DNA from: Ruminococcus flavefaciens
Lineage (GTDB): Bacteria > Bacillota > Clostridia > Oscillospirales > Ruminococcaceae
Length of the DNA stretch: 64,000 nucleotides
Assembly (NCBI GenBank): GCA_902777125.1
Contig: CACYSQ010000005.1
Span: 44,609-108,608 of the forward strand
Direction: 5' to 3'
Shown piece after piece: positions 30,198-43,922 of the stretch (position 1 is the stretch's first letter; the number at the start of each line of letters is the position of its first letter). The notes beneath the pieces are model-generated. The model was not told where the DNA came from. It searched no databases and worked only from the letters and a program-made list of their open reading frames with translations. The translations under genes and the position numbers were made by a program.

Positions 30198-31364
30198 TTA
30201 TGCTTTCGGCATCTTTTTCCGGATATCGTTAAGACGTTCGAGTGCATTTTCGAGCGTTTCGTTCTTTTTGGCGTAGTGGAGCCTTATGTAGCGGTTTTCG
30301 GGCTCCTTGAAGAAGCTCGAGCCCGGAACAGCTCCCACTCCGACGTATTCTGCGAGCTTTTCGCAGAAGTCGAGGTCGCTCGCATAGCCGAATTCGGATA
30401 TATCGAGCAGGATATAGTAAGCGCCCTCCGGAACGGTATGCTGTATGCCGATATCGTCAAGACCGCGCAGGAAAAGGTCACGCTTCTCGGTGTACTTGTC
30501 CTGGAGCCACTTGTAGTAGTCGTCCCCGAAACGCAGACCTGTCACGGCAGCCTCCTGCAAGGGTGCGGCAGCGCCGACAGTGAGGAAGTCGTGTACCTTC
30601 TTGACGGTGTCGATGATGTGCGGAGGAGCTATAACATAGCCAAGTCTCCAGCCGGTAATGGAGTAGGTCTTTGACAGCGAGGAGCAGGAAATGGTCCTCT
30701 CCCACATACCGGGCAGACTTGCGAGGTAAATGTGCTTGTGAGGGGCGTAGACGATGTGCTCATAGACCTCGTCTGTTATGACGAAGGTGTCGTACTTCTT
30801 TGCGAGGTCAGCGATAATCTGCAATTCTTCGAGCGTGAATACCTTTCCGCAGGGATTGGACGGATTGCAGAGTATCAGCGCCTTCGGGTGCTGCCTGAAC
30901 GCAGCTTCGAGGACGTCCGCATCGAAGCTGAAAGCCGGAGGTATCAGCGGAACGTATATCGGTTCAGCGCCGGAGAGTATCGTATCAGCGCCGTAGTTCT
31001 CGTAGAAAGGCGAGAAAACGATGACCTTGTCGCCGGGATTGGTAACGGACATCATTGCCGCCATCATAGCCTCGGTGCTTCCGCAGGTAACGACGATCTC
31101 GCCGTTGGGGTCGATCGGTCTGCCCATGAGACGGGACTGCTTTTCCGCAAGAGCCTCGCGGAAGTTCTGAGCGCCCCATGTTATGGAATACTGGTGGAAG
31201 TCCTCGCGAGTCACCTCGGCGAGACGGTCGAGTATCTCACGCGGAGGCTCGAAGTCGGGGAAGCCCTGTGAGAGGTTCACAGCGCCGTATTTATTGGATA
31301 TTCTCGTCATGCGTCTGATGACGGAATCGGTAAAGGTAGCGGTACGGTTTGAAAGCTCGGGCAT
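30198..31364 (-). CDS. Class I/II aminotransferase (methionine/aromatic type)
   Basis: 388 aa PLP aminotransferase of the kynurenine/methionine aminotransferase subgroup: LSQGFPDFEPP near the N-terminus, NPSNPCGKVF, DEVYEHIVY, SSLSKTYSITGWRLG with the PLP Lys, and R-L-H-Y-A with the carboxylate-binding Arg (NRYIRLHYAK). ATG 31364 has AGGAGG upstream. It follows the acyl-CoA-ligase gene and should interconvert an amino acid and the 2-oxoacid handled by the ferredoxin oxidoreductase. The exact substrate (Met, Phe, Tyr or Trp) is not decidable from sequence. Confidence 0.85.
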   Translation of the reverse strand: MPELSNRTATFTDSVIRRMTRISNKYGAVNLSQGFPDFEPPREILDRLAEVTREDFHQYSITWGAQNFREALAEKQSRLMGRPIDPNGEIVVTCGSTEAMMAAMMSVTNPGDKVIVFSPFYENYGADTILSGAEPIYVPLIPPAFSFDADVLEAAFRQHPKALILCNPSNPCGKVFTLEELQIIADLAKKYDTFVITDEVYEHIVYAPHKHIYLASLPGMWERTISCSSLSKTYSITGWRLGYVIAPPHIIDTVKKVHDFLTVGAAAPLQEAAVTGLRFGDDYYKWLQDKYTEKRDLFLRGLDDIGIQHTVPEGAYYILLDISEFGYASDLDFCEKLAEYVGVGAVPGSSFFKEPENRYIRLHYAKKNETLENALERLNDIRKKMPKA

Positions 31365-31391
31365 TGTAATTCCTCCTGAATCATATAAAAT

Positions 31392-31459
31392 GTAGGGGCT
31401 GGCGTCCTCGACAGCCCACACAAACATATCAATGGGACGTCGGGGACGCCGTCCCCTAC
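31392..31459. repeat. REP-like element pair (copy 9)
   Basis: GTAGGGGCTG(G)CG / CGACAGCCC hairpin at the left, GGGACGTCG / CGCCGTCCCC plus TAC at the right, ends inverted. Lies between the ligase and aminotransferase genes. Confidence 0.7.
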
Positions 31460-31484
31460 AATCATATCTTATATTATAGCATTA

Positions 31485-32825
31485 TCATATGTTGTAGTCA
31501 ATATTTCTCTCGTCGATAACACGCTTGGACTTGTGCTCGGAACGTGTATTCAGTCCGCCGTCGGGGTGAACGACTACTCTGTCGGGCTTAACGCCGATGC
31601 GGGCCTTGAGAGCTGCGCTTACCTCGGCTGCAACGGTAGCATCGTCCTTTGCAACGCCGGAAGCCTTCTCGACCTCAACAGCATACTTGCTTGTGAAGTC
31701 TCTCTCGAATATCCTGATGAGGTATTCGCCGGTCAGATCGCTCTGCTCACGGATAACAGCCTCGATATCGCTCGGGAAAACGTTAACAGCGGAAACGATG
31801 AACATATCGTCCTTTCTGCCGAGAATGCTGATCCTGCCGTGGGTACGTCCGCAGCGGCACTTTGTAGTGTCGATTCTGCCGATATCGCCTGTCTTGAAGC
31901 GGATAAGAGGACGTGCGTGCTTGCGGAGTGTGGTGAATACGAGCTCACCGGTCTGACCGGGCTCGAGCACCTCGCCTGTATGTATATCCACAGTTTCAAC
32001 GAGAATGTGGTTCTCAGCGATGTGGAGACCGTCGTGGTATTCGCACTGTGCAGCGCAGGCTCCGAAAATATCGGAAAGGCCGTAGAAATCGAACACCTCA
32101 GCTCCCCATATATCCTCGATAGCCTTTCTTGTGGCGTCGATGGAACCGCCGAGCTCGCCGGCAACGATGATCTTCTTGATATTGAAGTCCTTCTTCGGGT
32201 CATAGCCGGCTTTGAGAGCCTTTTCGCCGAGCTGCCATGCGTAGGAGGGCGAAGTCCAAATGATAGTGGGCTTGTAGGTCTTGAGAATGAAGAGAAGTCT
32301 CTCGCTCGGGAGAGTACCGCCCCAGATACACAATGCACCGAGGTTCTGAGCGCCGATTACGTCAGGACCGCCTACATAGAGGGAGAAGTTGAGCGCGTGA
32401 ACGTAGCGGTCGTTGGGTCTCATTCCTATCTGCCAGAACCAGCGGCTCTCGGTGTCCTGGAACTCATCGAAGTCCTTCTTTGTGAAGGGGCTCATGGTCG
32501 GAACGCCTGTTGAACCGGAGGAGGTGGAGATGAACACTACGTCCTCCTCGGGAACAGCTGCGAGCTCGCCGAGGAAGGAGCCTACGCCCTGAGTATCGCG
32601 CTGTGTCTTTTTGTTGATGAACGGGAACTTTTCGATGTCCTTGAGGGTCTTGATATCCTCGGGCTTAACGCCTGCCTCATCGAACGAACGCTTGTAGTAG
32701 GGAGCGTTGTCGTATGCGAACTTCACGATCTCCTTGAGGTCCTCAAGCTGTCTTTTTTCGAGTTCTTCACGCGGGAGAGTTTCAAGCTCCTCGTTCCAGA
32801 ATTTGTTGTTTATATCTCTGCTCAT
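31485..32825 (-). CDS. Phenylacetate-CoA ligase family protein (PaaK-like)
   Basis: 446 aa adenylate-forming enzyme that activates an aryl or short acid to its CoA ester. STSSGSTGVPT is the P-loop, YGLSDIFG the A5 region, RFKTGDIGRI the A7-A8 region, and the C-terminal domain is complete. The N-terminus FWNEELETLPREELE is typical of PaaK. ATG 32825 has GGAGG upstream (an earlier ATG at 32840 overlaps that site). It has its own promoter with a LysR box inside the end of the upstream beta-subunit gene. With the ferredoxin oxidoreductase it can link acid, acyl-CoA and 2-oxoacid. Confidence 0.88.
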   Translation of the reverse strand: MSRDINNKFWNEELETLPREELEKRQLEDLKEIVKFAYDNAPYYKRSFDEAGVKPEDIKTLKDIEKFPFINKKTQRDTQGVGSFLGELAAVPEEDVVFISTSSGSTGVPTMSPFTKKDFDEFQDTESRWFWQIGMRPNDRYVHALNFSLYVGGPDVIGAQNLGALCIWGGTLPSERLLFILKTYKPTIIWTSPSYAWQLGEKALKAGYDPKKDFNIKKIIVAGELGGSIDATRKAIEDIWGAEVFDFYGLSDIFGACAAQCEYHDGLHIAENHILVETVDIHTGEVLEPGQTGELVFTTLRKHARPLIRFKTGDIGRIDTTKCRCGRTHGRISILGRKDDMFIVSAVNVFPSDIEAVIREQSDLTGEYLIRIFERDFTSKYAVEVEKASGVAKDDATVAAEVSAALKARIGVKPDRVVVHPDGGLNTRSEHKSKRVIDERNIDYNI

Positions 32826-32873
32826 TGTTTTATCCTCCATAACATATTATTTATATTTGTTTGGTATGTTTAT

Positions 32874-32903
32874 ATTATACACCGCATATCGGCATTTGTC
32901 CAA
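32874..32903 (-). promoter_or_regulatory. Promoter P2 of the ligase gene
   Basis: Minus-strand GTATTGGAC with -35 TTGGAC (32898-32903) and -10 TATAAT (32874-32879), 18-bp spacer. Same -35 context as at 35822 and 43855. Confidence 0.8.
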
Positions 32904-32923
32904 TACTATGCTTCTATACTGAG

Positions 32924-33829
32924 TTATAAGCTTTTCTTATAGCTGAAATTCTTTTCGATGCTCTCCCATTTCTTGTCGCGGGAGGCTGTTATGACCGCGA
33001 TATCCTCGTCCGTGAGATGCCTGAAGCGTCCCTGCTTTTTGAGGTAAGCCGCAGCGTCCGAGAATTCCTTCGGCTTGTGGTTGAGTGTGAACTCGCCGTT
33101 CTCGTACTCAGCCAAGTACCACAGTCCGCAGTCCACGACCTCCTTTGCGATATCAACGGTAGCGTCCGGAGCAACTCCCCAGCCTGTCGGACAGGGAGCG
33201 ATAACGTGGATATACTTAGTACCGCGTATCTGTGAAGCCTTGCGTACCTTTGCGATGAAATCGTAGATGTAGCCGACACTTGCGGTCGCCGCGTAGGGGA
33301 TACCGTGGGCGGCAGCTATCTCGAACATATTCTTCTTAGGACGGATATTGCCGTGGATATTCTCGCCGGCAGGAGTAGTGGTGGTCCTCGCACCGTAAGG
33401 CGTCAGACCGCTTTTCTGAATGCCGGTGTTCATGTAAGCCTCGTTGTCGTAGCAGATGTAGATGATATCGTCATTGCGGTCGATAGCGCCGGAAAGTGCC
33501 TGTATACCGATATCTGCCGTACCGCCGTCACCTGCGAAGCCTACTGCCGTGAAGTCCTTATAGCCTCTTGCACGGAGACCTGCCTCAACGCCCGTGAGCA
33601 TGGAAGCCGTACCTGCAAAGGTGGAGATAATGGAATTGTTGGAGAAGCACAGCTGCGGGAAATTGAAGCCTACCGCGGACATACAGCCTGCCGGGAGTAC
33701 CGAGACCGCATTCTGTCCGAGGACTTTCAGAGCTGCCCTGACCGCAAGACTTCCTCCGCAGCCGGCACAAGCCTTATGACCGTAGAAATATTCCTCGCGG
33801 GAGATGCTTTCCGCGACCTTATTTGCCAT
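32924..33829 (-). CDS. 2-oxoacid:ferredoxin oxidoreductase, beta (TPP) subunit
   Basis: 301 aa. CAGCGGSLAVRAAL near the N-terminus and the TPP site GFAGDGGTADIG ... CYDNEAYMNTGIQKSG mark it as the thiamine-diphosphate subunit of a four-subunit POR/VOR-like enzyme. The enzyme splits a 2-oxoacid to acyl-CoA and CO2 with ferredoxin, or runs in reverse. It overlaps the alpha gene by 11 bp. Substrate class (pyruvate, branched, aryl or methylthio) cannot be set from sequence alone; the neighbours argue against plain pyruvate. Confidence 0.9.
   Translation of the reverse strand: MANKVAESISREEYFYGHKACAGCGGSLAVRAALKVLGQNAVSVLPAGCMSAVGFNFPQLCFSNNSIISTFAGTASMLTGVEAGLRARGYKDFTAVGFAGDGGTADIGIQALSGAIDRNDDIIYICYDNEAYMNTGIQKSGLTPYGARTTTTPAGENIHGNIRPKKNMFEIAAAHGIPYAATASVGYIYDFIAKVRKASQIRGTKYIHVIAPCPTGWGVAPDATVDIAKEVVDCGLWYLAEYENGEFTLNHKPKEFSDAAAYLKKQGRFRHLTDEDIAVITASRDKKWESIEKNFSYKKSL
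32925..32941 (-). promoter_or_regulatory. LysR-type operator box at P2
   Basis: TATAA-N7-TTATA dyad of 17 bp, 21 bp upstream of the -35, followed by AC-N5-ATAGA. It overlaps the 3' end of the beta-subunit gene, so the site is conserved despite lying in coding sequence. Confidence 0.72.
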
Positions 33830-34988
33830 TTTCTTCGCCTCCTATGCCGATGAAGTTAACGCTGTCGGTGCCGTTTGCAATGGCACTGTAGATGTTTTCG
33901 ATGTCCGCAGCGGAGATGTTCCTTCCGCCGAGACCGCCGATGAAATTGTAGCCGGGAACGTTCACGCCAGCCTTTTTGAGGGCGGAGTTGACGTTCGTGA
34001 AGACCGTTCCCTCATTGCCGAAGCTGATGTCCTTTTCGAGGACGGCGTAAGCCTTTGCATTCCGCAGAACACCGGCGATCTCCTCATTCGGGAAGGGTCT
34101 CATGTAGCGTATGCGGACAACGCCTGCCCTGACGCCGTTCTCACGGAGCTTGTCGGCAGTCTCACGGCAGAGACCTGCGATGCTTCCGAGGGTAACGATG
34201 ATGTATTCAGCGTCCTCAGTGCGGTAATCCTCGGTCAGACCGGAGTATTTCCTGCCGAATATTTCAGCGAATTCCGCCTCTGTTCGGGTGATGACCTCAC
34301 GCGCCGCGAGAACTCCTCTGTGTTCCTTGTATTTGAAGATGTAGTTGGTGTCCGGACCTGCCGAGAAAGCCATATTCTTCGGGTTCTCGAAGTCTATGCG
34401 GTTGTCGGTCTCATAGGGCGGAAGAAATCTGTCCGCCTGTTCACGGTCGGGAATGTCCACTGTTTCGTAGGTGTGGGTGAGGATAAAGCCGTCGAGGTTC
34501 GCCATGAAAGGTGTGGAGACCGTCTTGTCCTCAGCTATGCGGTAGCTCATCAGCGCGAGGTCGAGGGCTTCCTGAGCGTTTTCGGCGTAAGCCTGTATCC
34601 AGCCGCTGTCGAGCTGCGAGAGACTGTCACGCTGATCGCCGTAGATGTTCCACGGGAGAGCTGTTGAACGGTCGGCATTCATCATGACGATCGGAAAGCG
34701 TCCGCCTGCCGCGTAGTAGAGACATTCCGCCATGTAGAGGAGACCCTGCGAGGAGGTCGCCGTGAAAGCCCTTGCACCGGCGGCACTTGCACCGATAGCG
34801 CATGAGAGTGCGGAATGCTCGGATTCAACGTGTATGTATTCAGCCTTGAGACTGCCGTCCTCGACCATTTCGGAGAGCTTTTCCACGACTATGGTCTGCG
34901 GGGTTATCGGGTAAGCCGAGATGACCTGCGGACGCGCAAGGCGTATGCCCTCGGCAAAAGCCTCGTTGCCTGATAAAAACTTTTTCAT
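33819..34988 (-). CDS. 2-oxoacid:ferredoxin oxidoreductase, alpha subunit
   Basis: 389 aa. ISAYPITPQTIVVEKLSE is the pyrimidine-binding domain signature; SSQGLLYMAECLYYAAGGRFPIVM and the C-terminal DVLE-type transketolase domain (YAVLEKDISFG) are present. Starts with ATG at 34988 overlapping the delta stop (ATGA), with GGAGG upstream. Works with the gamma, delta and beta subunits encoded in the same operon. Confidence 0.92.
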   Translation of the reverse strand: MKKFLSGNEAFAEGIRLARPQVISAYPITPQTIVVEKLSEMVEDGSLKAEYIHVESEHSALSCAIGASAAGARAFTATSSQGLLYMAECLYYAAGGRFPIVMMNADRSTALPWNIYGDQRDSLSQLDSGWIQAYAENAQEALDLALMSYRIAEDKTVSTPFMANLDGFILTHTYETVDIPDREQADRFLPPYETDNRIDFENPKNMAFSAGPDTNYIFKYKEHRGVLAAREVITRTEAEFAEIFGRKYSGLTEDYRTEDAEYIIVTLGSIAGLCRETADKLRENGVRAGVVRIRYMRPFPNEEIAGVLRNAKAYAVLEKDISFGNEGTVFTNVNSALKKAGVNVPGYNFIGGLGGRNISAADIENIYSAIANGTDSVNFIGIGGEENGK

Positions 34989-35278
34989 TTGCGTTCCGCC
35001 TCCATTCCGACAGCACCGGTCTTGCATATTTTCGCGCATATTCCGCAGCCCTTGCAGAAATCGTAGTCAATGACAGCCTTGCCGTCCTTAATTGAGATGA
35101 CTCCGTCCGGACAGTAGAGGTAGCACTGCTCGCAGCCGACGCATTTTCCGGCGTCGATGACTGGTCTTATGCTTCTCCAACCGCTGTTGACGCTTACGAG
35201 GTAGCCTGCCTCAAACGACGTATTTTCAGGGACTTCCTCAAACGTAAAGCCCTTTTTTTCTCTTATGTAGGGTCTCAT
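34985..35278 (-). CDS. 2-oxoacid:ferredoxin oxidoreductase, delta (2x[4Fe-4S]) subunit
   Basis: 97 aa. Two ferredoxin motifs, CVGCEQCYLYCP and CKGCGICAKIC, carry electrons from the TPP site to free ferredoxin. The N-terminal extension (residues 1-35) is normal for PorD/VorD. Overlaps the gamma gene by 1 bp and the alpha gene by 4 bp, so translation is coupled. Confidence 0.92.
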   Translation of the reverse strand: MRPYIREKKGFTFEEVPENTSFEAGYLVSVNSGWRSIRPVIDAGKCVGCEQCYLYCPDGVISIKDGKAVIDYDFCKGCGICAKICKTGAVGMEAERK

Positions 35279-35790
35279 CAGACTGCCTCCTCTGCGGCTT
35301 TAAGTATCGCGGAGATGTTCCGCTCCTGAATTTTTTTGGGCATATAGCCCTTTACAGCCTCGACCGCGTTCTCCTCGGTGGCAACTCCCGAGATACCGGT
35401 GAGAAGTCCGAGCATGACGGTGTTGACCGTGGGGAGCTTCAGCTCAGCCGCGATATTTTCGGCATCGAAGGAGAGAGCTCCCTCGATGTCATTCTTGGAA
35501 TTGACGATGATATTGCCGTCCTCCTTCAGAAGCGAGCGGAGCTGCGGCTCATAGAGGGTATCATCGAGTATCACGATATAATCAGCCTTTTCGGTCTGAC
35601 TTCTGTCAGCGACCGGCTTTGTATCGAGCTTTGTGAAGGCTCTCACGGGAGCGCCGCGGCGTTCCGGACCGAATGAGGGGAAAGCGAGCGCGTACTTGTC
35701 GCCGCTGTCCGAGGTATAGGCAGCTCCGAGGAGCTTTGCGGCAGTAAAAGCGCCCTGACCGCCGCGTCCGAGCCAGATTATTTCGATCAT
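35278..35790 (-). CDS. 2-oxoacid:ferredoxin oxidoreductase, gamma subunit
   Basis: 170 aa, first gene of the operon. WLGRGGQGAFTAAKLLG is the CoA/subunit-interaction motif of PorG/VorG, and SFGPERRGAPVRAFTKL follows. Start ATG 35790 is preceded by AGGAG. The promoter and LysR box lie just upstream, next to the LysR gene. Confidence 0.92.
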   Translation of the reverse strand: MIEIIWLGRGGQGAFTAAKLLGAAYTSDSGDKYALAFPSFGPERRGAPVRAFTKLDTKPVADRSQTEKADYIVILDDTLYEPQLRSLLKEDGNIIVNSKNDIEGALSFDAENIAAELKLPTVNTVMLGLLTGISGVATEENAVEAVKGYMPKKIQERNISAILKAAEEAV

Positions 35791-35821
35791 AGTGGTTCTC
35801 CTATCGTTTTAGTATGTTTTA

Positions 35822-35851
35822 ATTATACACTGACCTGCAAAAAAAGTCCAA
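35822..35851 (-). promoter_or_regulatory. Promoter P1 of the ferredoxin oxidoreductase operon
   Basis: -35 TTGGAC (35846-35851, in GTATTGGAC) and -10 TATAAT (35822-35827), 18-bp spacer. No leader ORF between it and the gamma gene. Confidence 0.8.
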
Positions 35852-35872
35852 TACCGGACATCTATTTCACGT

Positions 35873-35889
35873 TATAGGCAAAAACTATA
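35873..35889 (-). promoter_or_regulatory. LysR-type operator box at P1
   Basis: TATAG-N7-CTATA, 17 bp, T-N11-A type, 21 bp upstream of the -35 and followed by AC-N5-ATAGA. Lies between the LysR stop and the operon it probably controls. Confidence 0.78.
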
Positions 35890-35894
35890 GCAAA

Positions 35895-35922
35895 GTGGGG
35901 CGCCGGATACGGCGTCCCCTAC
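35895..35922. repeat. REP-like hairpin (copy 10, single)
   Basis: GGGGCGCCG / CGGCGTCCCC hairpin closed by CTAC; right after the LysR stop, so it may also terminate that gene. Confidence 0.6.
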
Positions 35923-35929
35923 AGAAAGG

Positions 35930-36838
35930 CTATATCCCGAGGTAATTCTTTATCTCCTCAATGTATATTTCCGCCATTTCGCTGAGAATGACGTTTTTCA
36001 GCGTGATATAGCCGATTTCCATGACCTCGTCCGTATCGTCCTCGAACGGCACGGCGATATAGTCCGAACCGTTCAGCTCCTCGCAGATGATGCCGGAGCA
36101 GAGGGTATAGCCGTTGAGACCTATCATGAGATTGAGCATGGTAGCACGGTCGTTCGCCTTGATAGTGCGCTGGTAGTCGGCAGTGCTGAGCAGCTCCTCC
36201 GCGAGATAGAACGTGCTGTTGTCGCCCTGCTCAAAGGAGAGACAGGGGTAGTCCGCGAGCTGTTCAAAGGTTATTTTTTTCTCGTTCGAGAGGGGGTGAC
36301 CCTTCCACAGGTAAACGTAGGGGCTGCACTTCGTGAGCGTGTGGAACTCCAGACCGTTCGAGTGGAGCAGCTTGGTTATCGACTTGCGGTTGAAGTCGTT
36401 GAGGTAGATGATGCCGATCTCACTTCGCATAGTGGCAACATCGCTGATGACCTCAGCGGTCTTGGTCTCGCGCACAGCGAATTCGTACTCCGAGGTATCG
36501 AACTCCTTGACCATTTCCACGAAAGCCTTTACAGCAAAGGAGTAATGCTGGGAGGAAACGCCGAACTTCTTCTTGACGCCGCCCTTGTTGATGTATTTTT
36601 CGGCTAGAACATCGAACTGTCCGACCACCTGACGGGCGTATTGCAGGAACTCAGCACCGTCGTTGGTGAGGGTAACTCCGCGGCCGCTGCGGTTGAAGAT
36701 CTTGATGCCGATCTCTTTTTCGAGCTCCTGAACGGAGGAGGTCAGCGAGGGCTGCGAGACGTAGAGCTGTTCTGCGGCTTTGTTCATAGAGCCGGTCGCG
36801 GATATTGCAAGAATGTATTTAAGCTGCTGTAAGGTCAT
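35930..36838 (-). CDS. LysR-family transcriptional regulator, predicted regulator of the sulfur/2-oxoacid block
   Basis: 302 aa. N-terminal winged helix-turn-helix (MTLQQLKYILAISATGSMNKAAEQLYVSQPSLTSSVQELEKEIG) split across about residues 1-60 and a periplasmic-binding-protein-like effector domain. It belongs to the Cys/CmbR-like branch by general pattern, an inference. ATG 36838 with GGAG upstream is used; an ATG at 36871 lacks a site. It sits between the transsulfuration genes and the ferredoxin oxidoreductase operon, and boxes of the TATAR-N7-YTATA type flank four promoters around it. Confidence 0.88.
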   Translation of the reverse strand: MTLQQLKYILAISATGSMNKAAEQLYVSQPSLTSSVQELEKEIGIKIFNRSGRGVTLTNDGAEFLQYARQVVGQFDVLAEKYINKGGVKKKFGVSSQHYSFAVKAFVEMVKEFDTSEYEFAVRETKTAEVISDVATMRSEIGIIYLNDFNRKSITKLLHSNGLEFHTLTKCSPYVYLWKGHPLSNEKKITFEQLADYPCLSFEQGDNSTFYLAEELLSTADYQRTIKANDRATMLNLMIGLNGYTLCSGIICEELNGSDYIAVPFEDDTDEVMEIGYITLKNVILSEMAEIYIEEIKNYLGI

Positions 36839-36889
36839 AATAATTCTCCATTCTATCGAGAGATGTTTCATTTGCTTTACTCTTTGGTG

Positions 36890-37125: not shown

Positions 37126-37144
37126 ATTAGGTGAAACATCACGC

Positions 37145-38056
37145 TCAATCGTATAGTCCGGTACTGAAATAACGGTCGCCGCGGTCGGGGAAGACCGTTA
37201 CGATATTGCCTCTTGCGCCGTCCTTTATCAGCTTCAGTACCGCTGCCATTGCCGCTCCCGAGGAAGAGCCGGCGATTATTCCCTCCGTTTTCGCAAGGAG
37301 CCTTGCGGTATTGAAAGCCTCGTCATCATTCATTTTTATCACGCCGTCCACAAGGGACATATCCATTGTCTCGGCAATGAAGTCGTTGCCGATGCCCTCG
37401 ATGTTGTAGTCAGCGTGTTCGCCGCCGCCCATAGTCGAGCCGACCGGGTCAGCGAGGATACCCTTTGCAGTGGGAACTCTCTCCTTGATGTAGCGGAGTA
37501 TTCCCGTGTAGGTACCGCCGCTGCCTGCACCCGCGACAACGTAGTCAATCTTTCCGTCGAGAGCCTCGTATATCTCGCGTCCGGTAGTCTCGTAGTGGGC
37601 GAGGGGATTGCTCTGATTCTTGAACTGTTCGAGCGATACCGAGCCGGGGATCTGTGCCTTTATCTCCTCAGCCTTTGCGACTGCACCGAGCATTCCCTTT
37701 TCGCGGGGAGTGTTCACTACCTCGGCGCCGAGTGCCCGGAGAAGCGACTGCTTTTCCGCTGAAAACTTAGTGGGGACTACGAAGATTATACGGTAGCCGC
37801 GGTTGAGAGCCGCAAAAGCTATTCCGAGACCGGTATTTCCGGCGGTAGCCTCAACGATAGTGCCGCCCGGTCTGAGAATGCCGCGTTTTTCCGCATCGTT
37901 TATCATGTAGAGACCTGTTCTGTCCTTGACGCTTCCGGAGGGATTGTAAAGCTCGAGCTTTGCGAAGACGTTCACGCTGTCCTCCTGAACGATATTACCG
38001 AGCCTTACAAGGGGAGTGTTTCCGATGAGGGACTGCATTGAATCAAAGTATCTCAT
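37145..38056 (-). CDS. cysK: Cysteine synthase / O-acetylserine-dependent cystathionine beta-synthase family
   Basis: 303 aa fold-type II PLP enzyme: IGNTPLVRL, SGSVKDRTGL with the PLP Lys, EATAGNTGLGIAFA substrate loop and GAGSGGTYTGI phosphate loop. It either makes cysteine from O-acetylserine and sulfide or, as MccA does in Bacillus, joins homocysteine to O-acetylserine. Position next to a cystathionine lyase/synthase and a SAM methyltransferase favours the MccA-like role. Start ATG 38056 lies 10 bp after the upstream gene. Confidence 0.85.
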   Translation of the reverse strand: MRYFDSMQSLIGNTPLVRLGNIVQEDSVNVFAKLELYNPSGSVKDRTGLYMINDAEKRGILRPGGTIVEATAGNTGLGIAFAALNRGYRIIFVVPTKFSAEKQSLLRALGAEVVNTPREKGMLGAVAKAEEIKAQIPGSVSLEQFKNQSNPLAHYETTGREIYEALDGKIDYVVAGAGSGGTYTGILRYIKERVPTAKGILADPVGSTMGGGEHADYNIEGIGNDFIAETMDMSLVDGVIKMNDDEAFNTARLLAKTEGIIAGSSSGAAMAAVLKLIKDGARGNIVTVFPDRGDRYFSTGLYD

Positions 38057-38066
38057 ATATATTATC

Positions 38067-39227
38067 TCACTTTCTCTCAGATTTTTCAATAGCCTGTGCG
38101 ATATCTGCAAGAATATCCTCAATGCTCTCAATGCCGACGGAAAGACGGATAAGACCGTCCGTGATGCCGACTTTTTTGCGGATATCAGCCGGAATGGAGG
38201 CGTGGGTCATGGTAGCGGGGTGGCATACGAGGGACTCGACTCCGCCGAGGCTCTCCGCGAGGTTTACAAGCTCAAGGCTCTCGAAGAATGTGTTGATATC
38301 GTAGTTCTCATGGAGCTCAAAGGATATCATCGCACCGCCGTTTTTAGCCTGTCTGCGGTTGACCTCATAGCCCTGACTGCTTTCGAGACCGGGATAGTAG
38401 ACGTTCTTCACAGCCTTGTGCGCTGAGAGGAACTCCGCCGCTTTTTCAGCATTGTAAACGTGTCTGTCCATGCGTACCGCAAGTGTTTTTATGCCGCGGA
38501 TAAGGAGGAACGAATCGAAAGGTCCGAGAACTCCGCCTGTGGAATTCTGTATGAACGCTATCTTCTCCGCAAGCTCCTTTGTGCTGACAACGACAAGTCC
38601 GGAGACAACGTCGCTGTGACCGCCGAGGTACTTTGTAGCGCTGTGAACAACGATGTCCGCACCGAGTTCAAGTGGCTTCTGCAAATAGGGTGTCATGAAG
38701 GTGTTGTCCACGATGACGAGATGACCGTATCTGTGCGAGACCTCCGCGATTGCCCTGATATCGGTGATCGTCATGAGGGGATTTGCAGGGCTTTCGATGA
38801 TGACCGCTTTGACATCGGGAGTTATCTGGCTCTCATAGACCGCTGTGTCGGTGGTATCGGCAATGGTGTAGTTTATGCTGAAGTGGTCGAATACCTTGCT
38901 GAGAAGCCGGAACGTTCCGCCGTAGACGTTGCTTGAAATGAGAACGCGGTCGCCGCTGTGGAGCAGGCTGAGGACTGCGGTGAGAGCAGCCATTCCGGAG
39001 GCAAATGCAAAGCCTGCGACGCCGCCCTCAAGATCAGCGATGAGGGCTTCGAGAGCCTCACGGGTAGGGTTGCCTGTGCGGGAGTATTCATAGCCGCGCA
39101 TTTTTCCGAGACCGTCCTGCTTATAGGTCGAAGTCTGGTATATCGGGATATTTACAGCGCCGGTGCGTTCGTCAATGGAGATGCCTCCGTGGATAAGGGC
39201 TGTTTCTGTATTTGCAAATTTACTCAT
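38067..39227 (-). CDS. Cystathionine gamma-lyase/gamma-synthase family protein
   Basis: 386 aa PLP enzyme of the Cys/Met metabolism family: YEYSRTGNPTREALE, FASGMAALTAVLSLL, DNTFMTPYLQKPLELGADIVVHSATKYLGGHSD with the PLP Lys, and GGVESLVCHPATMTH. Gamma-lyase (MccB-like) and gamma-synthase cannot be separated by eye; the adjacent CysK/MccA-like gene suggests reverse transsulfuration. ATG 39227 has AAGGAG upstream. Confidence 0.88.
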   Translation of the reverse strand: MSKFANTETALIHGGISIDERTGAVNIPIYQTSTYKQDGLGKMRGYEYSRTGNPTREALEALIADLEGGVAGFAFASGMAALTAVLSLLHSGDRVLISSNVYGGTFRLLSKVFDHFSINYTIADTTDTAVYESQITPDVKAVIIESPANPLMTITDIRAIAEVSHRYGHLVIVDNTFMTPYLQKPLELGADIVVHSATKYLGGHSDVVSGLVVVSTKELAEKIAFIQNSTGGVLGPFDSFLLIRGIKTLAVRMDRHVYNAEKAAEFLSAHKAVKNVYYPGLESSQGYEVNRRQAKNGGAMISFELHENYDINTFFESLELVNLAESLGGVESLVCHPATMTHASIPADIRKKVGITDGLIRLSVGIESIEDILADIAQAIEKSERK

Positions 39228-39249
39228 AATAATTCTCCTTTTCAATTCT

Positions 39250-39317
39250 GTAGGGGCGGATACTATCCGTCCGAATGTTTCAGGGCTGTTTCGCGGGCGG
39301 ATAATATCCGCCCCTAC
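39250..39317. repeat. REP-like element pair (copy 11)
   Basis: GTAG with GGGCGGATA / TATCCGTCC at the left and GGGCGGATA / TATCCGCCC plus CTAC at the right, a nearly perfect inverted pair. Lies between the methyltransferase and the cystathionine enzyme gene. Confidence 0.75.
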
Positions 39318-39328
39318 TGTATTCTCAA

Positions 39329-40225
39329 TTATTCGTAGTCGTAGCCTGCGGTGTAGACCGCTGATATCAGGCTAACGTTTTCAAATGCCTTCAAGCCGTC
39401 CTCTCTGCCGTCGAAGTATTCCGACTGCACCTTTTCAGGCGGCATATAGGTGTCTATCTGGAAGCCGAGGGAGTACAGTGCGCGTGAGACTTCATTGTAG
39501 TCAAAACCGCCGCGCATCACCTCACCGAGCTCCTCCGTTATCCTCTCAAGACGGGCAACTCTCCGCGGAAAATCGCCGGTCTTTATAGGGTAGTCGAACA
39601 CGACCGCACTTCCGAGAGCGGAAAGCTCTGCCATTTGCCTGAGAGTGTCCGCAAAGACATCGAGCGTGAGGTAGTAGGAAACTCCGAGAATGCTGAAAAA
39701 CGTCTTCTTGTCCGGGTCGAAGCCTGCCGCGATGAGCTTGTCGCACATTCGCTCCTTCTCGAAATCGACCGGTACGAAATGAACGTTTTGGGGGATATTC
39801 CATTCGAGCTCGCTTATCCTCCCGAGCTTGAAGCGCTGGGTGTCGGGGTGATCTATCTCGAAGATCTCGATGTTCTCATTGGTGTTGCGGAACGAAAATG
39901 TGTCCGAGCCGGCACCGCAGATGACGTACTGTATTTTGCCGTTTTCAGCGGCGAAATCCGCGAGTCTCACCTCGTTGAAGTGTATCCTCGAAAGAGGGAT
40001 AGGAGCGATATATTCCTTTATCAGCAGCTCTGTGTCCTCACGGGAGAAGGACTGAAGTCCTCCGAAGCCGCTGCTTATCATATCGTAGATGCTGTCGTAT
40101 TCTTCCTTGCCCATGAAGTCAAAGGCAAGGTAATCGTCATAGATCTTCTGACGCGCCTTGTTCGAGTGCCAAGCCCTCACGAACGCGCACATTTTAGCGG
40201 TAACGCTTTCTCTTTCATCGACCAT
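39329..40225 (-). CDS. Class I SAM-dependent methyltransferase (leucine-carboxyl-methyltransferase-like family)
   Basis: 298 aa. The N-terminus (AFVRAWHSNKARQKIYDDYLAFDFMG) and the SAM site YVICGAGSDTFSFR with EIDHPDTQ match the LCMT/PPM1-like family of small-molecule methyltransferases. Substrate unknown. Position ahead of transsulfuration genes parallels the yrrT-type methyltransferase of the Bacillus mccAB operon, though the family is different. ATG 40225 has CCGGAGG upstream, directly after an attenuator-like terminator and a Cys-rich leader ORF. Confidence 0.8.
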   Translation of the reverse strand: MVDERESVTAKMCAFVRAWHSNKARQKIYDDYLAFDFMGKEEYDSIYDMISSGFGGLQSFSREDTELLIKEYIAPIPLSRIHFNEVRLADFAAENGKIQYVICGAGSDTFSFRNTNENIEIFEIDHPDTQRFKLGRISELEWNIPQNVHFVPVDFEKERMCDKLIAAGFDPDKKTFFSILGVSYYLTLDVFADTLRQMAELSALGSAVVFDYPIKTGDFPRRVARLERITEELGEVMRGGFDYNEVSRALYSLGFQIDTYMPPEKVQSEYFDGREDGLKAFENVSLISAVYTAGYDYE

Positions 40226-40237
40226 AAAAACCTCCGG

Positions 40238-40276
40238 AAAAATAAAAATGCACGGGAAGCAAACCGCATCCCGCGC
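40238..40276 (-). terminator. Predicted attenuator (intrinsic terminator before the methyltransferase gene)
   Basis: Minus-strand stem GCGCGGGA / TCCCGTGC (8 pairs, one G-T) with an 11-base loop, followed directly by ATTTTTATTTTT. It lies 20 bp after the leader ORF stop and before the ribosome site of the methyltransferase gene, the expected place for an attenuator. Confidence 0.72.
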
Positions 40277-40296
40277 ATAAAAATACTCGCTGACGA

Positions 40297-40389
40297 TCAG
40301 AAAGAGGCGCAACATCGCTGAGCATAAGTACGCAGAACACGGTAATATCTCATTGTACACATACAACAGCACATCATGTTGGTTCTCAT
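40297..40389 (-). CDS. Cys-rich leader peptide (30 aa), predicted cysteine attenuator
   Basis: ATG with AGGAG 8 bp upstream opens a 30-codon ORF containing MMCCCMC early and RCC near its end: six Cys codons, three in a row. It starts about 45 nt into the transcript from promoter P4 and is followed by an intrinsic terminator and then the methyltransferase/cysteine genes. Cys codon clusters in a leader ahead of cysteine metabolism genes indicate control by ribosome stalling when Cys-tRNA is scarce, as in His or Trp leaders. Too short for routine gene calling. Confidence 0.7.
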   Translation of the reverse strand: MRTNMMCCCMCTMRYYRVLRTYAQRCCASF

Positions 40390-40440
40390 GTTCAGGACTC
40401 CTTTCAAAGTAATTCTTGTATTCCTATCGGAACAATATGG

Positions 40441-40469
40441 ATTATATCACATCAAGCATACTTTGTCAA
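40441..40469 (-). promoter_or_regulatory. Promoter P4 of the leader-methyltransferase-transsulfuration operon
   Basis: -35 TTGACA (40464-40469) and -10 TATAAT (40441-40446), 17-bp spacer. Confidence 0.82.
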
Positions 40470-40496
40470 TAGGTTTTGTTTATATTCGGCAATAGT

Positions 40497-40513
40497 TATA
40501 GAAATACCCTATT
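40497..40513 (-). promoter_or_regulatory. LysR-type operator box at P4
   Basis: AATAG-N7-CTATA on the minus strand, 17 bp, followed by ACT as at the other boxes. Its distance to the -35 is 27 bp rather than 21, and the ATAGA subsite is not conserved, so control here may differ. Confidence 0.55.
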
Positions 40514-40578
40514 ATTCAGACGTACTTTATAGATTTTGCCAGAATCAGAAACTAAGAGATCAGAGAGTAGAGAGTAGT

Positions 40579-40815
40579 GTAGGGGCGCACACTGTGCGCC
40601 CGTGCCTTACAATAAAAATATCAAAAATCAAAATGTAGGGAACGGCACCCTCGCCGTTCCACTTGTAGGGGCGGCGTACCGCCGCCCGCAGGCAATAAAA
40701 CTCACCTCCGGCAACGCTGTGTAGGGGGCGATGCCTACATCGTCCTGTCAAATTACAGACAAACCACCGGCAACAAACCGTAGGTGAAGGAACGGCGAGG
40801 GCGCCGTCCCCTGCA
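40579..40815. repeat. Array of five REP-like hairpins (copy 12)
   Basis: Four direct GTAG units with different stems: GGGCGCAC / GTGCGCCC (40579-40602), GGAACGGC / GCCGTTCC (40635-40660), GGGCGGCG / CGCCGCCC (40665-40688), GGGCGATG / CATCGTCC (40721-40745), closed by an inverted GGAACGGCG / CGCCGTCCCC plus TGCA (40789-40815). This is the densest site in the window and fills the gap after the ABC transporter operon. Confidence 0.75.
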
Positions 40816-40822
40816 CAGCAGC

Positions 40823-40862
40823 AAAAAAGCCAAAGAACGAATAATCATCGCTCTCCGGCTTT
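40823..40862 (-). terminator. Terminator of the ABC transporter operon
   Basis: AAAGCCggaGAGCGA / TCGTTCtttGGCTTT stem on the minus strand followed by TTTTGC. Confidence 0.75.
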
Positions 40863-40881
40863 ATCATTTTATATTTTCTAT

Positions 40882-41802
40882 TCATCGTTTCCACCTTAAA
40901 AGGTAGTTCTGGAGCTTGTTGAACAGGAAGGTCACGCCGATGACAACGAAGCCGATGACGAGAAGACCTGTTATAGTGCGTGTGTAGTCGCCGAAATCCG
41001 AGTAATACTTGACATAGTAGCCCATGCCGTCCTTAGCGTTTATCATCTCAGCGGAGGTGAGAAGAATGAACGAAACGCTGAGGCCCTGATTGCAGCCGAG
41101 GAATATCTGCTGCAAGGAAGCCGGGAGTATAACCTTGAAAAGCATCTCCGGTTTTCTGACGTTGAGGACCTTTGCCGAGTCGATAATCTTCTTGTCAACT
41201 CCGAGCACACCGCTCATGGTTCCGGCGAAGACCGGCCAGAATGTTGCGAGGAAGATAACGAAAACGGATACTGACTTGAAGGTCGGGAGAAGCGCGATGC
41301 CGTAGGGGATATAGACTATCGGAGGTATCGAGCTGAAAAACTTGGTTATGTAAGTTGCAGCGCTGCCGGTTCTGGCGTTCCAGCCGATGATAAGACCGAG
41401 CGGAACAGCGGCAGCTACGGCAAAAACGAAGCCCTTGACTATAGTGATGAGCGAGCTCTTGATGTTATCGTTTATCTTGTCCCTGTCAATAACGAACTGG
41501 TGTATGACTCTGCCGGGAGCAGGGAAAAGCAGATCGTTGAGGTAGTTGTACTTGGCAGTAGCAAGCGACCATGCCGCAAGGAGGATATATACAAAGCCGG
41601 CGATGTCCACTAAGAGCGCAAGGCTTTCCTCTTTTTTTATCAGGGAAGAGCCCACGAGGACGAGCACTTCAAAGCCTATCGCAAATTTTACCAGTGATGA
41701 TGTGAAAGCAGGCTTCGTGGACTGTTCGGGAATGAGCTGTATCAGGAGGAGTATGATGAAAAGCAGGTGGGTCACGCGGAGGTATCTTTTTTTCAGCGTC
41801 AT
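40882..41802 (-). CDS. ABC transporter permease (sulfonate/nitrate/taurine type)
   Basis: 306 aa with seven or eight hydrophobic segments. The EAA-type loop appears as DSAKVLNVRKPEMLFKVILPASLQQIFLG, matching SsuC-like permeases. It is longer than typical (about 260 aa) because of an additional hydrophobic N-terminal pair. It overlaps the ATPase gene by 4 bp. Together with the ATPase and lipoprotein it forms an importer for a small anion, most likely an organosulfur compound given the genes under the same operator. Confidence 0.87.
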   Translation of the reverse strand: MTLKKRYLRVTHLLFIILLLIQLIPEQSTKPAFTSSLVKFAIGFEVLVLVGSSLIKKEESLALLVDIAGFVYILLAAWSLATAKYNYLNDLLFPAPGRVIHQFVIDRDKINDNIKSSLITIVKGFVFAVAAAVPLGLIIGWNARTGSAATYITKFFSSIPPIVYIPYGIALLPTFKSVSVFVIFLATFWPVFAGTMSGVLGVDKKIIDSAKVLNVRKPEMLFKVILPASLQQIFLGCNQGLSVSFILLTSAEMINAKDGMGYYVKYYSDFGDYTRTITGLLVIGFVVIGVTFLFNKLQNYLLRWKR

Positions 41803-42617
41803 AGTACCACCTCATCTCCGCCGATACGCTCGGCAATGTCGTTGTAGAGGAGGGAGAGCAGCTTGTTGCGGAACTTTCCGTATTCCTCGGTCTTGACGAG
41901 GTCGGCACGGCTTCTCGGACGCTCAAACGGAACGTTGAGTATCTCATTTACGGTACCGGGGTGAGCGGTGAGAACGACTATCCTGTCTGAAAGGAGGATA
42001 GCCTCGTCGATATCGTGGGTAACGAAAACGACGGTCTTGCGTTCAGTGGTACCGTCGCCCTCCCAGAGCTTGAGGAGGAGCTCCTGAAGGATAACGCGGT
42101 TCTTGGCGTCGATAGCGCTGAAAGGTTCGTCCATGAGGAGTATCTCCGTGTTCATAGCAAGAGCCCTTGCAATGGCAGCTCTCTGCTGCATACCGCCTGA
42201 GAGCTGGGAGGGGTACTTTCCGCCGAATTCAGAGAGACCGACCTTTGTGAGGTATTCGTCAGCTATCCTTGAACGCTCGGTGCGCTTGATATCGTGACGG
42301 GTCTGCTTTATGCCGAACTCTATGTTTTTCTTCGTGGTCATCCACGGAAAGAGGGAGTAGTGCTGGAACACTACTCCGCGTTCTTTTCCGGTGCCGTGAA
42401 GCTCCTTGCCGTCAATCTGAACAGAGCCGCCTGCGGGGGCATAAAGCCCCTCGAGCACGCTCAGAAGCGTGGACTTTCCGCAGCCGCTCGCACCGATAAC
42501 GCTCACGAATTCACCTCTGCCAACGCCGAATGATACATCGTGGAGGGCATTGAAGCTTCGCTTGTTTTCTATGTAATTAACAGTGAGATCCTTTATCTCG
42601 ATCTTATTCGTAGTCAT
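41799..42617 (-). CDS. ABC transporter ATPase (sulfonate/nitrate/taurine type)
   Basis: 272 aa. GASGCGKST (Walker A), FQHYSLFPWMTTKKN (Q-loop), LSGGMQQRAAIARAL (signature), LLMDEPFSAID (Walker B and D-loop) and VFVTHDIDEAILLSDRI (switch His) are all intact. The LFPWMT wording and HPGTVNEIL end region are typical of the SsuB/TauB/NrtD group. Overlaps its neighbours by 14 bp and 4 bp. Confidence 0.93.
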   Translation of the reverse strand: MTTNKIEIKDLTVNYIENKRSFNALHDVSFGVGRGEFVSVIGASGCGKSTLLSVLEGLYAPAGGSVQIDGKELHGTGKERGVVFQHYSLFPWMTTKKNIEFGIKQTRHDIKRTERSRIADEYLTKVGLSEFGGKYPSQLSGGMQQRAAIARALAMNTEILLMDEPFSAIDAKNRVILQELLLKLWEGDGTTERKTVVFVTHDIDEAILLSDRIVVLTAHPGTVNEILNVPFERPRSRADLVKTEEYGKFRNKLLSLLYNDIAERIGGDEVVL

Positions 42618-43722
42618 CGAAATGCTCCTTTAATGATTTGTAGATATCATCGGAGTTTTCGGAGAGGATGTCGTCGAGTGCATTTTTGTATATTTCAGTG
42701 TTGTAATGTGCTTCGAGGTCGAAATCCTCGGTATATCCGAGCTCAACGATGGTGTCTTTGAGGGTGGCTGTACCTTTCTTGTCAGGGTCGGGACTGGATA
42801 TGCTGTATCCGCCGTAGACCTCTGTGTCAATGAAATCTGTTTCAATGTCGATGTACTTCTTTACGTCCTTGACCGTTTTTTCGTGGTCGGTCTGAGTGAA
42901 GTGGTAGGCCTTGATGAAAGCGCGTTCTATCGCGGTGTAGGTGTTGGGATTTGCGCTGAGAGCGGAGGTCTTTGCGACCTGACGGCAGCAGGGCTGATTT
43001 TCGAGAGCCTTTTCGTGAGCGCAGTAGTAAACGACCTTGTGTCCCTGAGACTTTGCAAGTGAAGCGTAGGGGGAGTATACCGAAGCCGCGTCAATGGACT
43101 TGTTGAGAAGTGCAGCGTAGGCGTCCTTCTGACTGTCGAAGTAAACGATGTTGACCTCGTCGTCACCGTCGCCTATCTTTATGCCGGCGTTCTTGAGAAG
43201 TATCTGGAGCTCTGCGTCCTGAACGCTGTTCTTTACGGAGGCAACGTTCCTGCCCTTGAGTATCTCAACTCCGAGCTCGTCCTTGTCAGCGTATTCCTCC
43301 TTGATGACGTAGCCGTGACCGTTTGTCATTGCGCCGCCGAATACCGTAATGTCGTGTCCCTGACTTGCAAATGTCAGCGTGGGAACTGAACCGATGAATG
43401 CGGCGTCGAGCTTGTCGGATTCAAGACCGTTCACAAGCTCGGAGGCGCTGGAGAACTGAGTGAGCTCAACGTCAAGACCTTCCTCCTCGAAGAAGCCCTC
43501 CTCCTCGGCAACGAAAGCGAGCAGATGAGCGGTAGAGTTGAGGTAGCCGATGTTTATCTTGGACTTTTCGGGCTTTTTGCTGCCGCTGCCCTCGCAGCCG
43601 TCACCTGAGCAGCAGTCCGGGACCTCGGAGGTCTTTGACGATGACGAATTGTTATTGAGTGCGCCGCAGCCTGTGAGAAGGGAAGCGGCAGCGAGGATTG
43701 ATATAAGCTTTAAATTTTTCAT
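42604..43722 (-). CDS. ABC transporter substrate-binding lipoprotein (sulfonate/nitrate/taurine type)
   Basis: 372 aa. Lipobox LLTGC near residue 19, a short linker with a Cys-rich patch (DCCSGDGCEG), then an NMT1/SsuA-like binding domain (INIGYLNSTAHLLAFVAEEEGFF, AAFIGSVPTL, IYVSVY-like second lobe). First structural gene of the operon, preceded by a small leader ORF, promoter P3 and a LysR box. The unusual Cys content (also QPCCRQ) may help metal or thiol binding, a guess. Confidence 0.88.
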   Translation of the reverse strand: MKNLKLISILAAASLLTGCGALNNNSSSSKTSEVPDCCSGDGCEGSGSKKPEKSKINIGYLNSTAHLLAFVAEEEGFFEEEGLDVELTQFSSASELVNGLESDKLDAAFIGSVPTLTFASQGHDITVFGGAMTNGHGYVIKEEYADKDELGVEILKGRNVASVKNSVQDAELQILLKNAGIKIGDGDDEVNIVYFDSQKDAYAALLNKSIDAASVYSPYASLAKSQGHKVVYYCAHEKALENQPCCRQVAKTSALSANPNTYTAIERAFIKAYHFTQTDHEKTVKDVKKYIDIETDFIDTEVYGGYSISSPDPDKKGTATLKDTIVELGYTEDFDLEAHYNTEIYKNALDDILSENSDDIYKSLKEHFDDYE

Positions 43723-43769
43723 AATTATTCACCTTTCGTAATTGGAAATTTTTTTGTTTTCAGCGGAGG

Positions 43770-43823
43770 TCAGTGCCAACATCGCATTCGCTCCGAAAAG
43801 GTGATGTATCTTGTATCTTTCAT
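43770..43823 (-). CDS. Short leader ORF (17 aa) upstream of the ABC operon
   Basis: ATG with AGGAG 7 bp upstream opens an ORF ending MRCWH-stop, about 30 nt into the transcript from P3. It has one Cys codon just before the end. There is no clear terminator after it, so an attenuation role is less supported than at 40297. Confidence 0.35.
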   Translation of the reverse strand: MKDTRYITFSERMRCWH

Positions 43824-43854
43824 GTTTTCACTCCTGTATTTCTTTGATGAACTA

Positions 43855-43884
43855 ATCATACCATACCTATAGGCGTTTGTCCAA
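43855..43884 (-). promoter_or_regulatory. Promoter P3 of the ABC transporter operon
   Basis: -35 TTGGAC in GTATTGGAC (43879-43884) and -10 TATGAT (43855-43860), 18-bp spacer. Confidence 0.78.
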
Positions 43885-43905
43885 TACGAAAGGTCTATCG
43901 TTAGT

Positions 43906-43922
43906 TATAACTGCAGGCTATA
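43906..43922 (-). promoter_or_regulatory. LysR-type operator box at P3
   Basis: TATAG-N7-TTATA, 17 bp, 21 bp upstream of the -35, followed by AC-N5-ATAGA, the same layout as at P1 and P2. Confidence 0.75.

Follow-up and report, generated by a model that had tools for sequence, protein, structure and literature searches.

A predicted LysR regulon with a putative cysteine attenuator and a candidate methionine-forming oxidoreductase module in Ruminococcus flavefaciens

Why should a ferredoxin-dependent 2-oxoacid oxidoreductase be encoded among genes for the import and interconversion of sulphur compounds? The question is raised by a locus of Ruminococcus flavefaciens (assembly GCA_902777125.1, contig CACYSQ010000005.1, 44,609-108,608 of the forward strand). 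This whole 64,000-nt stretch is referred to as the window, and all coordinates follow its numbering. The locus studied, at 30198-43922, holds genes for a LysR-type regulator, an ABC importer, a methyltransferase-cystathionine gamma-lyase-CysK operon, a four-subunit 2-oxoacid:ferredoxin oxidoreductase (POR) and a PaaK-like ligase with an aminotransferase; its genes, leaders, promoters and sites described below are on the minus strand. A first-pass annotation of the DNA had left the ferredoxin-dependent enzyme unexplained, and the evidence points to methionine synthesis. Taken in full, a sulphur-amino-acid regulon under LysR and attenuator control, in which a methionine module working from 3-methylthiopropionate serves cysteine output, is a model that we consider moderately probable.

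The first-pass annotation had claimed four promoters with a TATAR-N7-YTATA dyad. At three of them, 35873, 32925 and 43906, the 17-bp box is exact; the fourth, at 40497, reads AATAG-N7-CTATA and has one mismatch. Upstream of porC (site 35846..35889), the box at 35873-35889 is followed by a second dyad, ATAG-N7-GTAT, the -35 element TTGGAC and the -10 element TATAAT (35822-35827). The site upstream of the PaaK-like ligase (32898..32941) has its box at 32925-32941, overlapping the final codons of porB and its stop, and a -10 TATAAT at 32874-32879. Upstream of the ABC importer (43879..43922) the box lies at 43906-43922 and the -10, TATGAT, at 43855-43860. All three share one layout, the box and then AC-N5-ATAGA-N6-GTATTGGAC, with 21 bp from box to -35 and 18 bp from -35 to -10; the identical register described earlier for box, ATAGA subsite and -35 was thus reproduced.

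The window contains four exact matches to TATAR-N7-YTATA where 0.20 are expected. The one at 55847 lies inside an open reading frame (ORF) of 438 amino acids (aa) and was taken as a chance occurrence. The bare box was discarded as evidence, as it occurs at 19 places in the 2.62-Mb genome of the strain against 35 for the backward pattern. The composite, at up to 3 mismatches, is found in that genome at just the three window sites, each with 0 mismatches, and the backward control gives 0. When the pattern was loosened and the -10 included, exactly four sites were obtained, none of them with a mismatch, against 0 in the control. The additional site precedes metY, a gene on contig C28, outside the window, for an O-acetylhomoserine sulfhydrylase of 437 aa that scores 629 bits with TIGR01326 (cut-off 495). 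The regulon is therefore predicted to include this metY gene as well.

A scan of 120 genus genomes for the composite (at most 3 mismatches) gave hits in 65, and the backward control gave 0 in every genome. In 40 fetched stretches (at most 4 mismatches) sites precede porC 18 times, the ligase 20, the importer 18, metY-like genes 8 and LysR paralogues 3; of the eight remaining sites, four stand before unrelated ORFs, one before porA at a locus lacking a called porC, and three before no called gene. The sites move with the operons. The POR operon is 0.77 Mb off in genome G035 (L073, L093) and the importer operon about 45 kb off in G072 (L072, L092), the ligase operon precedes POR in G086 and G141 (L074, L084), and in G032 the LysR gene is on a separate contig (L077, L104).

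Co-occurrence was determined in 36 genus genomes, including that of the strain. Two or more sites are present in 17/17 genomes with a LysR at least 83% identical and in 0/11 without LysR (p = 4.7e-8, indicative only because the genomes are related). The ligase clade is found in 21/36 and a LysR of at least 64% identity in 21/36, both occurring together in 20 (Fisher 5.7e-8, for related genomes). The importer protein (E<=1e-30) is present in 18/36, every one inside the ligase set. The composite thus follows orthologues of this LysR in related Ruminococcus genomes, a scan that the first-pass annotation had proposed. Its claim of shared LysR control is strongly supported at the sequence level for the importer, POR and ligase-aminotransferase operons by the common register, the sites moving with operons and the co-occurrence with LysR. 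It is not supported for the methyltransferase/cystathionine/cysK operon as a like target, given the geometry, matrix score and attenuator described below.

The regulator is encoded at 35930..36838 (HTH_1 PF00126, 67 bits; LysR substrate domain PF03466, 48 bits). LysR activators usually bind a recognition site and a second site at the -35. Column statistics over 56 surveyed sites gave ATAR(2-5)/YTAT(13-16) and ATAR(25-28)/GTAT(36-39), with an equal 11-bp arm offset. Because this offset is that of the box, the ATAGA subsite and the start of GTATTGGAC are read as the arms of one weaker dyad over the -35. The subsite, earlier listed as a separate element, is present in register but forms a second copy of the box with the GTAT of the -35. 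A palindromic recognition site and a second site at the -35 are therefore both found in the sequence, as in two-site LysR activation, and we infer that the LysR protein binds the composite sites. Just 3' of the -10, near the expected transcription start, a CATACCAAA-like sequence is conserved at the regulated promoters (aligned positions 74-82, e.g. 35808-35816).

This LysR family is common, with at least 580 related stretches in named genomes, 80 of which were examined. Among the 80 listed, those outside the flavefaciens-like group often adjoin metY, cysK, the methyltransferase-lyase-CysK genes or ABC genes; LysR adjoins POR-ligase-aminotransferase in L176, L190 and L205. In L089, L105 and other genus genomes, LysR paralogues have a variant composite (CTATAATCTGCAATGGATTTTTCGCATTGGAC type) nearby, which may point to another regulon of like design.

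The promoter at 40497 controls an operon of a different kind. It encodes an S-adenosylmethionine (SAM)-dependent methyltransferase (MT; TIGR00027 / LCM; 39329..40225), a pyridoxal-phosphate enzyme of the cystathionine gamma-lyase type (CGL; 38067..39227; best model 561 bits, under its cut-off of 594) and an enzyme of the CysK / cystathionine beta-synthase (CBS) family (37145..38056), for which a PDB sequence search did not separate CysK from CBS identity. The LysR gene is probably the last gene of the operon and co-transcribed with it. MT, CGL and CysK together give the gene set of a reverse transsulfuration operon, known from the yrrT-mtnN-mccAB type, and by its predicted functions the operon can convert methionine to cysteine. 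Its promoter (40420..40513) consists of the AATAG-N7-CTATA dyad (40497-40513), a second dyad running into CTATTGACA, a 17-bp spacer and TATAAT. The upstream dyad stands 6 bp further from the -35, here the consensus TTGACA, than at the other sites. The composite weight matrix scores -25 at this promoter against 40 to 53 at the three exact sites, and none of 21 MT upstream regions is positive. It was rejected as a fourth copy of the composite on its geometry and negative score, though related dyads are present. When MT promoters were collected by TATTGACA and TATAAT, the spacer was 17 bp in 35/35 (14-22 allowed); a dyad extends into the -35 at 25/35 of these promoters, and at 15/35 there is a further one that begins 40 bp upstream. 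LysR may bind here as an autoregulator. The transcript start is predicted near a small conserved hairpin, GTTCCGATAGGAAT, at 40420-40433.

Treating this promoter as a plain LysR target had overlooked a second level of control. Between promoter and MT gene lie an ORF for a cysteine-rich leader peptide, MRTNMMCCCMCTMRYYRVLRTYAQRCCASF (40297..40389), and an intrinsic terminator (40240..40279; -20.3 kcal/mol). The 5' arm of the terminator is able to pair instead with the leader codons that encode YRVLRT, giving a competing duplex of -21.4 against -20.3 kcal/mol. In 34/40 MT regions there is, downstream of the promoter, an ORF of 15-48 aa that has a Shine-Dalgarno sequence before it and encodes at least 3 Cys; these 34 leaders are 29-38 aa long and contain 4 to 8 Cys (TGT 158, TGC 54). 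In plain 260-bp upstream regions a Cys-rich ORF is present at 29/40 MT genes and at 28/1194 other genes. RCC-type ORFs were counted at 28/40 against 5/1219. The pairing pattern passed over 8 of the 35 promoters, 1 has no terminator and 26 were scored; the competing pairing has z<-2 relative to base-composition shuffles in 24/26. Leader and terminator are predicted to form a ribosome-mediated cysteine attenuator that would respond to Cys-tRNA. Known RNA families were not detected in the window at the gathering threshold. In Lachnospiraceae (L215) a leader ORF of 32 aa, rich in cysteines, stands before a cysK-like gene, and cysteine attenuators may on this account be wider in Clostridia.

The POR is encoded by genes for gamma (PorC-like, 35278..35790; PorC_KorC above cut-off), delta (PorD-like, 34985..35278; PorD_KorD above cut-off), alpha (PorA-like, 33819..34994) and beta (PorB-like, 32924..33829) subunits, the last two below the equivalog cut-off. 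All four subunits of such an enzyme are thus present, delta with its two 4Fe-4S motifs. Aligning PorA and PorB with pyruvate and oxalate enzymes did not point to a substrate. The PaaK-like acyl-CoA ligase (31485..32825) belongs to a separate clade. It fails the curated PaaK cut-off (TIGR02155, 285 bits against 646), but this cut-off is strict, because the genome's IOR-linked PaaK also scores below it (533 bits). The pocket segment of the ligase is ALNFSLYVGGPD in 46/47 window-type sequences and ALNFTLFVGGPD in one; the YGYGLFTGG-type arylacetate segment, whose Tyr/Phe has a role in the aryl pocket, is lost. The PaaKs of L126, L129 and L132, of the IOR-linked type, have YGFGLFTGG or YGYGLFTGG, and 2-hydroxyisobutyryl-CoA synthetase (6hdw) has a segment, FSLYMG, similar to that of the window ligase. 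The class I aminotransferase (30198..31364) has as its nearest solved relative E. coli YbdL (255 bits), which we take to be a methionine aminotransferase.

The genome of the strain also encodes a PFOR (1839 bits, cut-off 911), VorB (543, cut-off 399) and IOR alpha (727, cut-off 651), and a second PaaK-type gene near IOR alpha. The POR, ligase and aminotransferase of the window are accordingly predicted to be distinct from the general ones, the classical POR and PaaK roles being filled elsewhere in the genome. In G013, G028 and G031, which do not have the regulon, frames sized as PFOR, VorB and IOR alpha are present, and no four-subunit-type POR alpha was found save a broken fragment (G031) and one of 284 aa (G028). 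Across seven tested genomes, frames of the PFOR, VorB and IOR kinds occur except for a PFOR-type frame in G026.

The window ligase clade was searched in 391 class genomes (E<=1e-120) and found in 16, the strain's own included, leaving 15 other loci. The aminotransferase is within 6 called genes of the ligase in 14 of these, as are POR subunits in 13. LysR is within the stretch in 3/15, and L240 stops at a contig edge. The importer beside the cassette is a MetQ-type lipoprotein with ATPase and permease at nine loci and SsuABC-like at three; none was seen at three. Lipoprotein_9 was found in all nine MetQ-type loci; MetN and MetI were tested in L239 alone, and both were under curated cut-offs. 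PatB C-S lyase and MetB/CGL-type neighbours were recognised by similarity in L237, L241, L247 and L248, in L247 also by NCBIfam. L235 has a run of MT, MetK, LuxS and phosphorylase superfamily genes, and L196 one of MT, MetK, LuxS, CGL and CysK. In L246 a T-box (RF00230, 124 bits) lies directly upstream of porC, its end about 50 bp from the gene, and the columns that we take to be its specifier read GAA-C-AUG-G (Met). Five control stretches at other PaaK-type genes (L126, L129, L130, L132, L138) contain no match to the window CGL, CysK, methyltransferase or importer. Near the cassette in L241 and L248 are a corrinoid protein, MtaA/CmuA or URO-D-fold methyltransferases and RACo/AcsV-type activators, and in L244 RACo with a URO-D-fold protein. 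The MtpCAP methylmercaptopropionate system of Methanosarcina (PMC7374477) has a corrinoid protein with an MtaA-type methyltransferase; a similar pair accompanies the cassette in L241 and L248, and none was seen in the window.

For methionine made through a ligase, a 2-oxoacid synthase and an aminotransferase there is one obvious acid precursor, 3-methylthiopropionate. In the proposed mechanism, LysR would bind two dyads in tandem and so activate the promoters of the importer, POR, the ligase-aminotransferase operon and metY. TATAR-N7-YTATA would be the strong recognition site; ATAR-N7-GTAT would be the activation site, weaker and with its right arm lying over a poor -35 (TTGGAC, 18-bp spacer). 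The MT-CGL-CysK operon would have a consensus promoter subject to attenuation, with the LysR gene closing the operon. When Cys-tRNA is uncharged, the ribosome would stall at the cysteine run, the leader codons would capture the 5' arm of the terminator, and the resulting antitermination would let transcription proceed into the cysteine synthesis genes and the LysR gene. The importer would take up a methylthio acid, most likely 3-methylthiopropionate, and the ligase would make its CoA ester. Reductive carboxylation by POR with reduced ferredoxin and CO2 would yield 4-methylthio-2-oxobutyrate, which the aminotransferase would convert to methionine. From methionine the path would run through SAM, S-adenosylhomocysteine, homocysteine and cystathionine to cysteine. 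Both the substrate and the synthetic direction of POR are deduced here from gene content and control. That the cassette, dispersed across Clostridia, is a previously unrecognised methionine route, tied in Ruminococcus to cysteine supply through the attenuated LysR gene, we regard as evenly balanced. If true, rumen and gut anaerobes can form methionine by CO2 fixation on an acid that arises when methionine or dimethylsulfoniopropionate is broken down. Such a loop would recycle sulphur and might be of importance for microbial amino-acid supply; a POR/PaaK-like pair that otherwise has no assignment would gain a product, and cysteine starvation would be linked through LysR to methionine-building genes in a compact circuit.

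Several observations weigh against this model. The regulon and pathway are predictions from sequence, and 3-methylthiopropionate has to be supposed present in the habitat. Only one of two metY-type genes carries a site; the composite is absent from the second, on contig C37 (594 bits). Genomes with a diverged LysR (50-82%) have two or more sites in only 2/8 and any site in 5/8. The leaders show no third-position excess in the codon-position test, and a constraint at the RNA level therefore overlaps the peptide. At the gathering threshold the L246 T-box is the only recognised RNA leader at the 15 class-level loci, other hits being tRNA and rRNA, and six loci rescanned at E<=0.5 gave nothing besides rRNA. 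With 1/15 loci having such a leader, the product call rests on one T-box and gene context. The MetQ-type importers could equally mean methionine uptake and breakdown. A MetH-like protein is encoded in 13/14 genomes tested, including that of the strain; methionine supply can thus do without the module, which would be a salvage or supplementary route. In the open-licence literature only the catabolic direction was found, and reductive carboxylation of 3-methylthiopropionate to methionine was not, which does not establish its absence from print; on 3-methylthiopropionate and methionine in the rumen, the same literature gave just an unrelated review.

Four other explanations were weighed. The same three enzymes in the same regulon might act on another sulphur acid, taking mercaptoacetate through 3-mercaptopyruvate to cysteine or 3-mercaptopropionate through 4-mercapto-2-oxobutyrate to homocysteine. 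The cysteine attenuator and CGL/CysK within the same locus would suit this, and thioglycolate, like 3-methylthiopropionate, is described as an amino-acid fermentation end product in Pyrococcus (PMC3942289). We nevertheless judge it unlikely: the AUG specifier of the single T-box indicates methionine, the aminotransferase is nearest to YbdL, and importers are of the MetQ type at 9/15 loci. These same importers would fit methionine catabolism, in which imported methionine is deaminated, decarboxylated oxidatively by POR to methylthiopropionyl-CoA and cleaved by the ligase, with reduced ferredoxin as the gain. This is the known archaeal direction of the chemistry (PMC3942289). The sulphur would, however, be discarded, and the site shared with metY, the adjacent cysteine attenuator and the one Met T-box are starvation controls. 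Ligases of the AMP-forming type, to which this one belongs, are moreover expected to spend ATP. Starvation control, metY in the regulon and the ligase type thus favour synthesis over breakdown, and catabolism appears quite unlikely.

Pyruvate, branched-chain and aryl acids are the classical substrates of the POR and PaaK families. This would agree with an ordinary branched-chain or aromatic route by reductive carboxylation, placed under sulphur control on account of the many Fe-S clusters in the enzyme. With PFOR, VorB, IOR and an IOR-linked PaaK already in the genome, the arylacetate segment lost and sulphur-gene neighbours recurring in distant families, such a route is improbable. Recognition of the composite sites by a different LysR protein of the genome is more improbable still. 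Related genomes do contain paralogous LysR clades (47-57% identity), some with variant sites upstream of themselves, but the 11 genomes missing this LysR clade have no site within 3 mismatches, and the two further LysR-query matches in the strain's own genome are weak, covering only part of the protein at 27-32% identity.

Rumen anaerobes are known to form branched-chain and aromatic amino acids through reductive carboxylation. The proposed methionine module is like these routes in combining an acid, a CoA ligase, a ferredoxin-dependent 2-oxoacid synthase and an aminotransferase; it differs in its predicted product, methionine, and in that VorB and IOR/PaaK sets are already in the genome. With Pyrococcus, where 2-oxoacid oxidoreductases and acyl-CoA synthetases ferment methionine to 3-methylthiopropionate (PMC3942289), intermediates are shared, whereas the window system is predicted to run in the opposite direction, with an AMP-forming type ligase and starvation control. 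The closest regulatory parallel is in the streptococcal MtaR/MetR/CmhR methionine regulons, for which PMC5359408 gives a LysR protein, a 17-bp TATAGTTTSAAACTATA and tests of mutated sites. The LysR activator, 17-bp palindrome, TATAG...CTATA arms and methionine-related targets are alike; the inner 7 bp are free in the window, and the likeness rests on sites, targets and LysR family. Here, in contrast, a second dyad and a non-consensus -35 keep a constant register with the box, and the targets include POR, the ligase and an SsuABC-like importer. Cysteine leader-peptide attenuators are described for mycobacterial cys and Bifidobacterium cbs leaders, without conserved terminators (PMC1262725), and for uORFC-8-2 before cysS in Rhodobacterales, a short cysteine-codon ORF with a terminator (PMC8632094). 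A short ORF with cysteine codons is common to these and the window, which has a terminator as uORFC-8-2 does; the Ruminococcus leader differs from those described in preceding a reverse-transsulfuration operon that also holds the LysR gene.

The importer itself consists of a substrate-binding lipoprotein (42604..43722), an ABC ATPase (41799..42617) and an ABC permease (40882..41802). The binding protein matches NMT1_2 and has the NrtA/CmpA/SsuA/TauA fold; the importer may be of the SsuABC/TauABC sulfonate type. It contains paired cysteines, DCC in the linker (kept in the orthologue consensus) and CC at 245-246, which are odd because the protein is made under presumed cysteine shortage; they are a possible metal or thiol ligand. 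A short conserved leader ORF (MKDTRYITFSERMRCWH, 43770..43823) precedes the operon; SERMRC is present in most orthologues and two end before RC.

In G035 (L137) a further group of a ligase (33% identical), a PorC-like and an aminotransferase-like gene lies beside an ABC transporter gene. The sole other positive composite-matrix score in the window (8.1) is at 31465-31509, between the ligase and aminotransferase genes, and resembles a plain promoter (TTGACT...TATAAT). A gtagggg / cccctac-type intergenic repeat, seen by eye at about 31390-31460, 35900-35925, 39250-39320 and 40580-40800, is probably a dispersed palindromic repeat.

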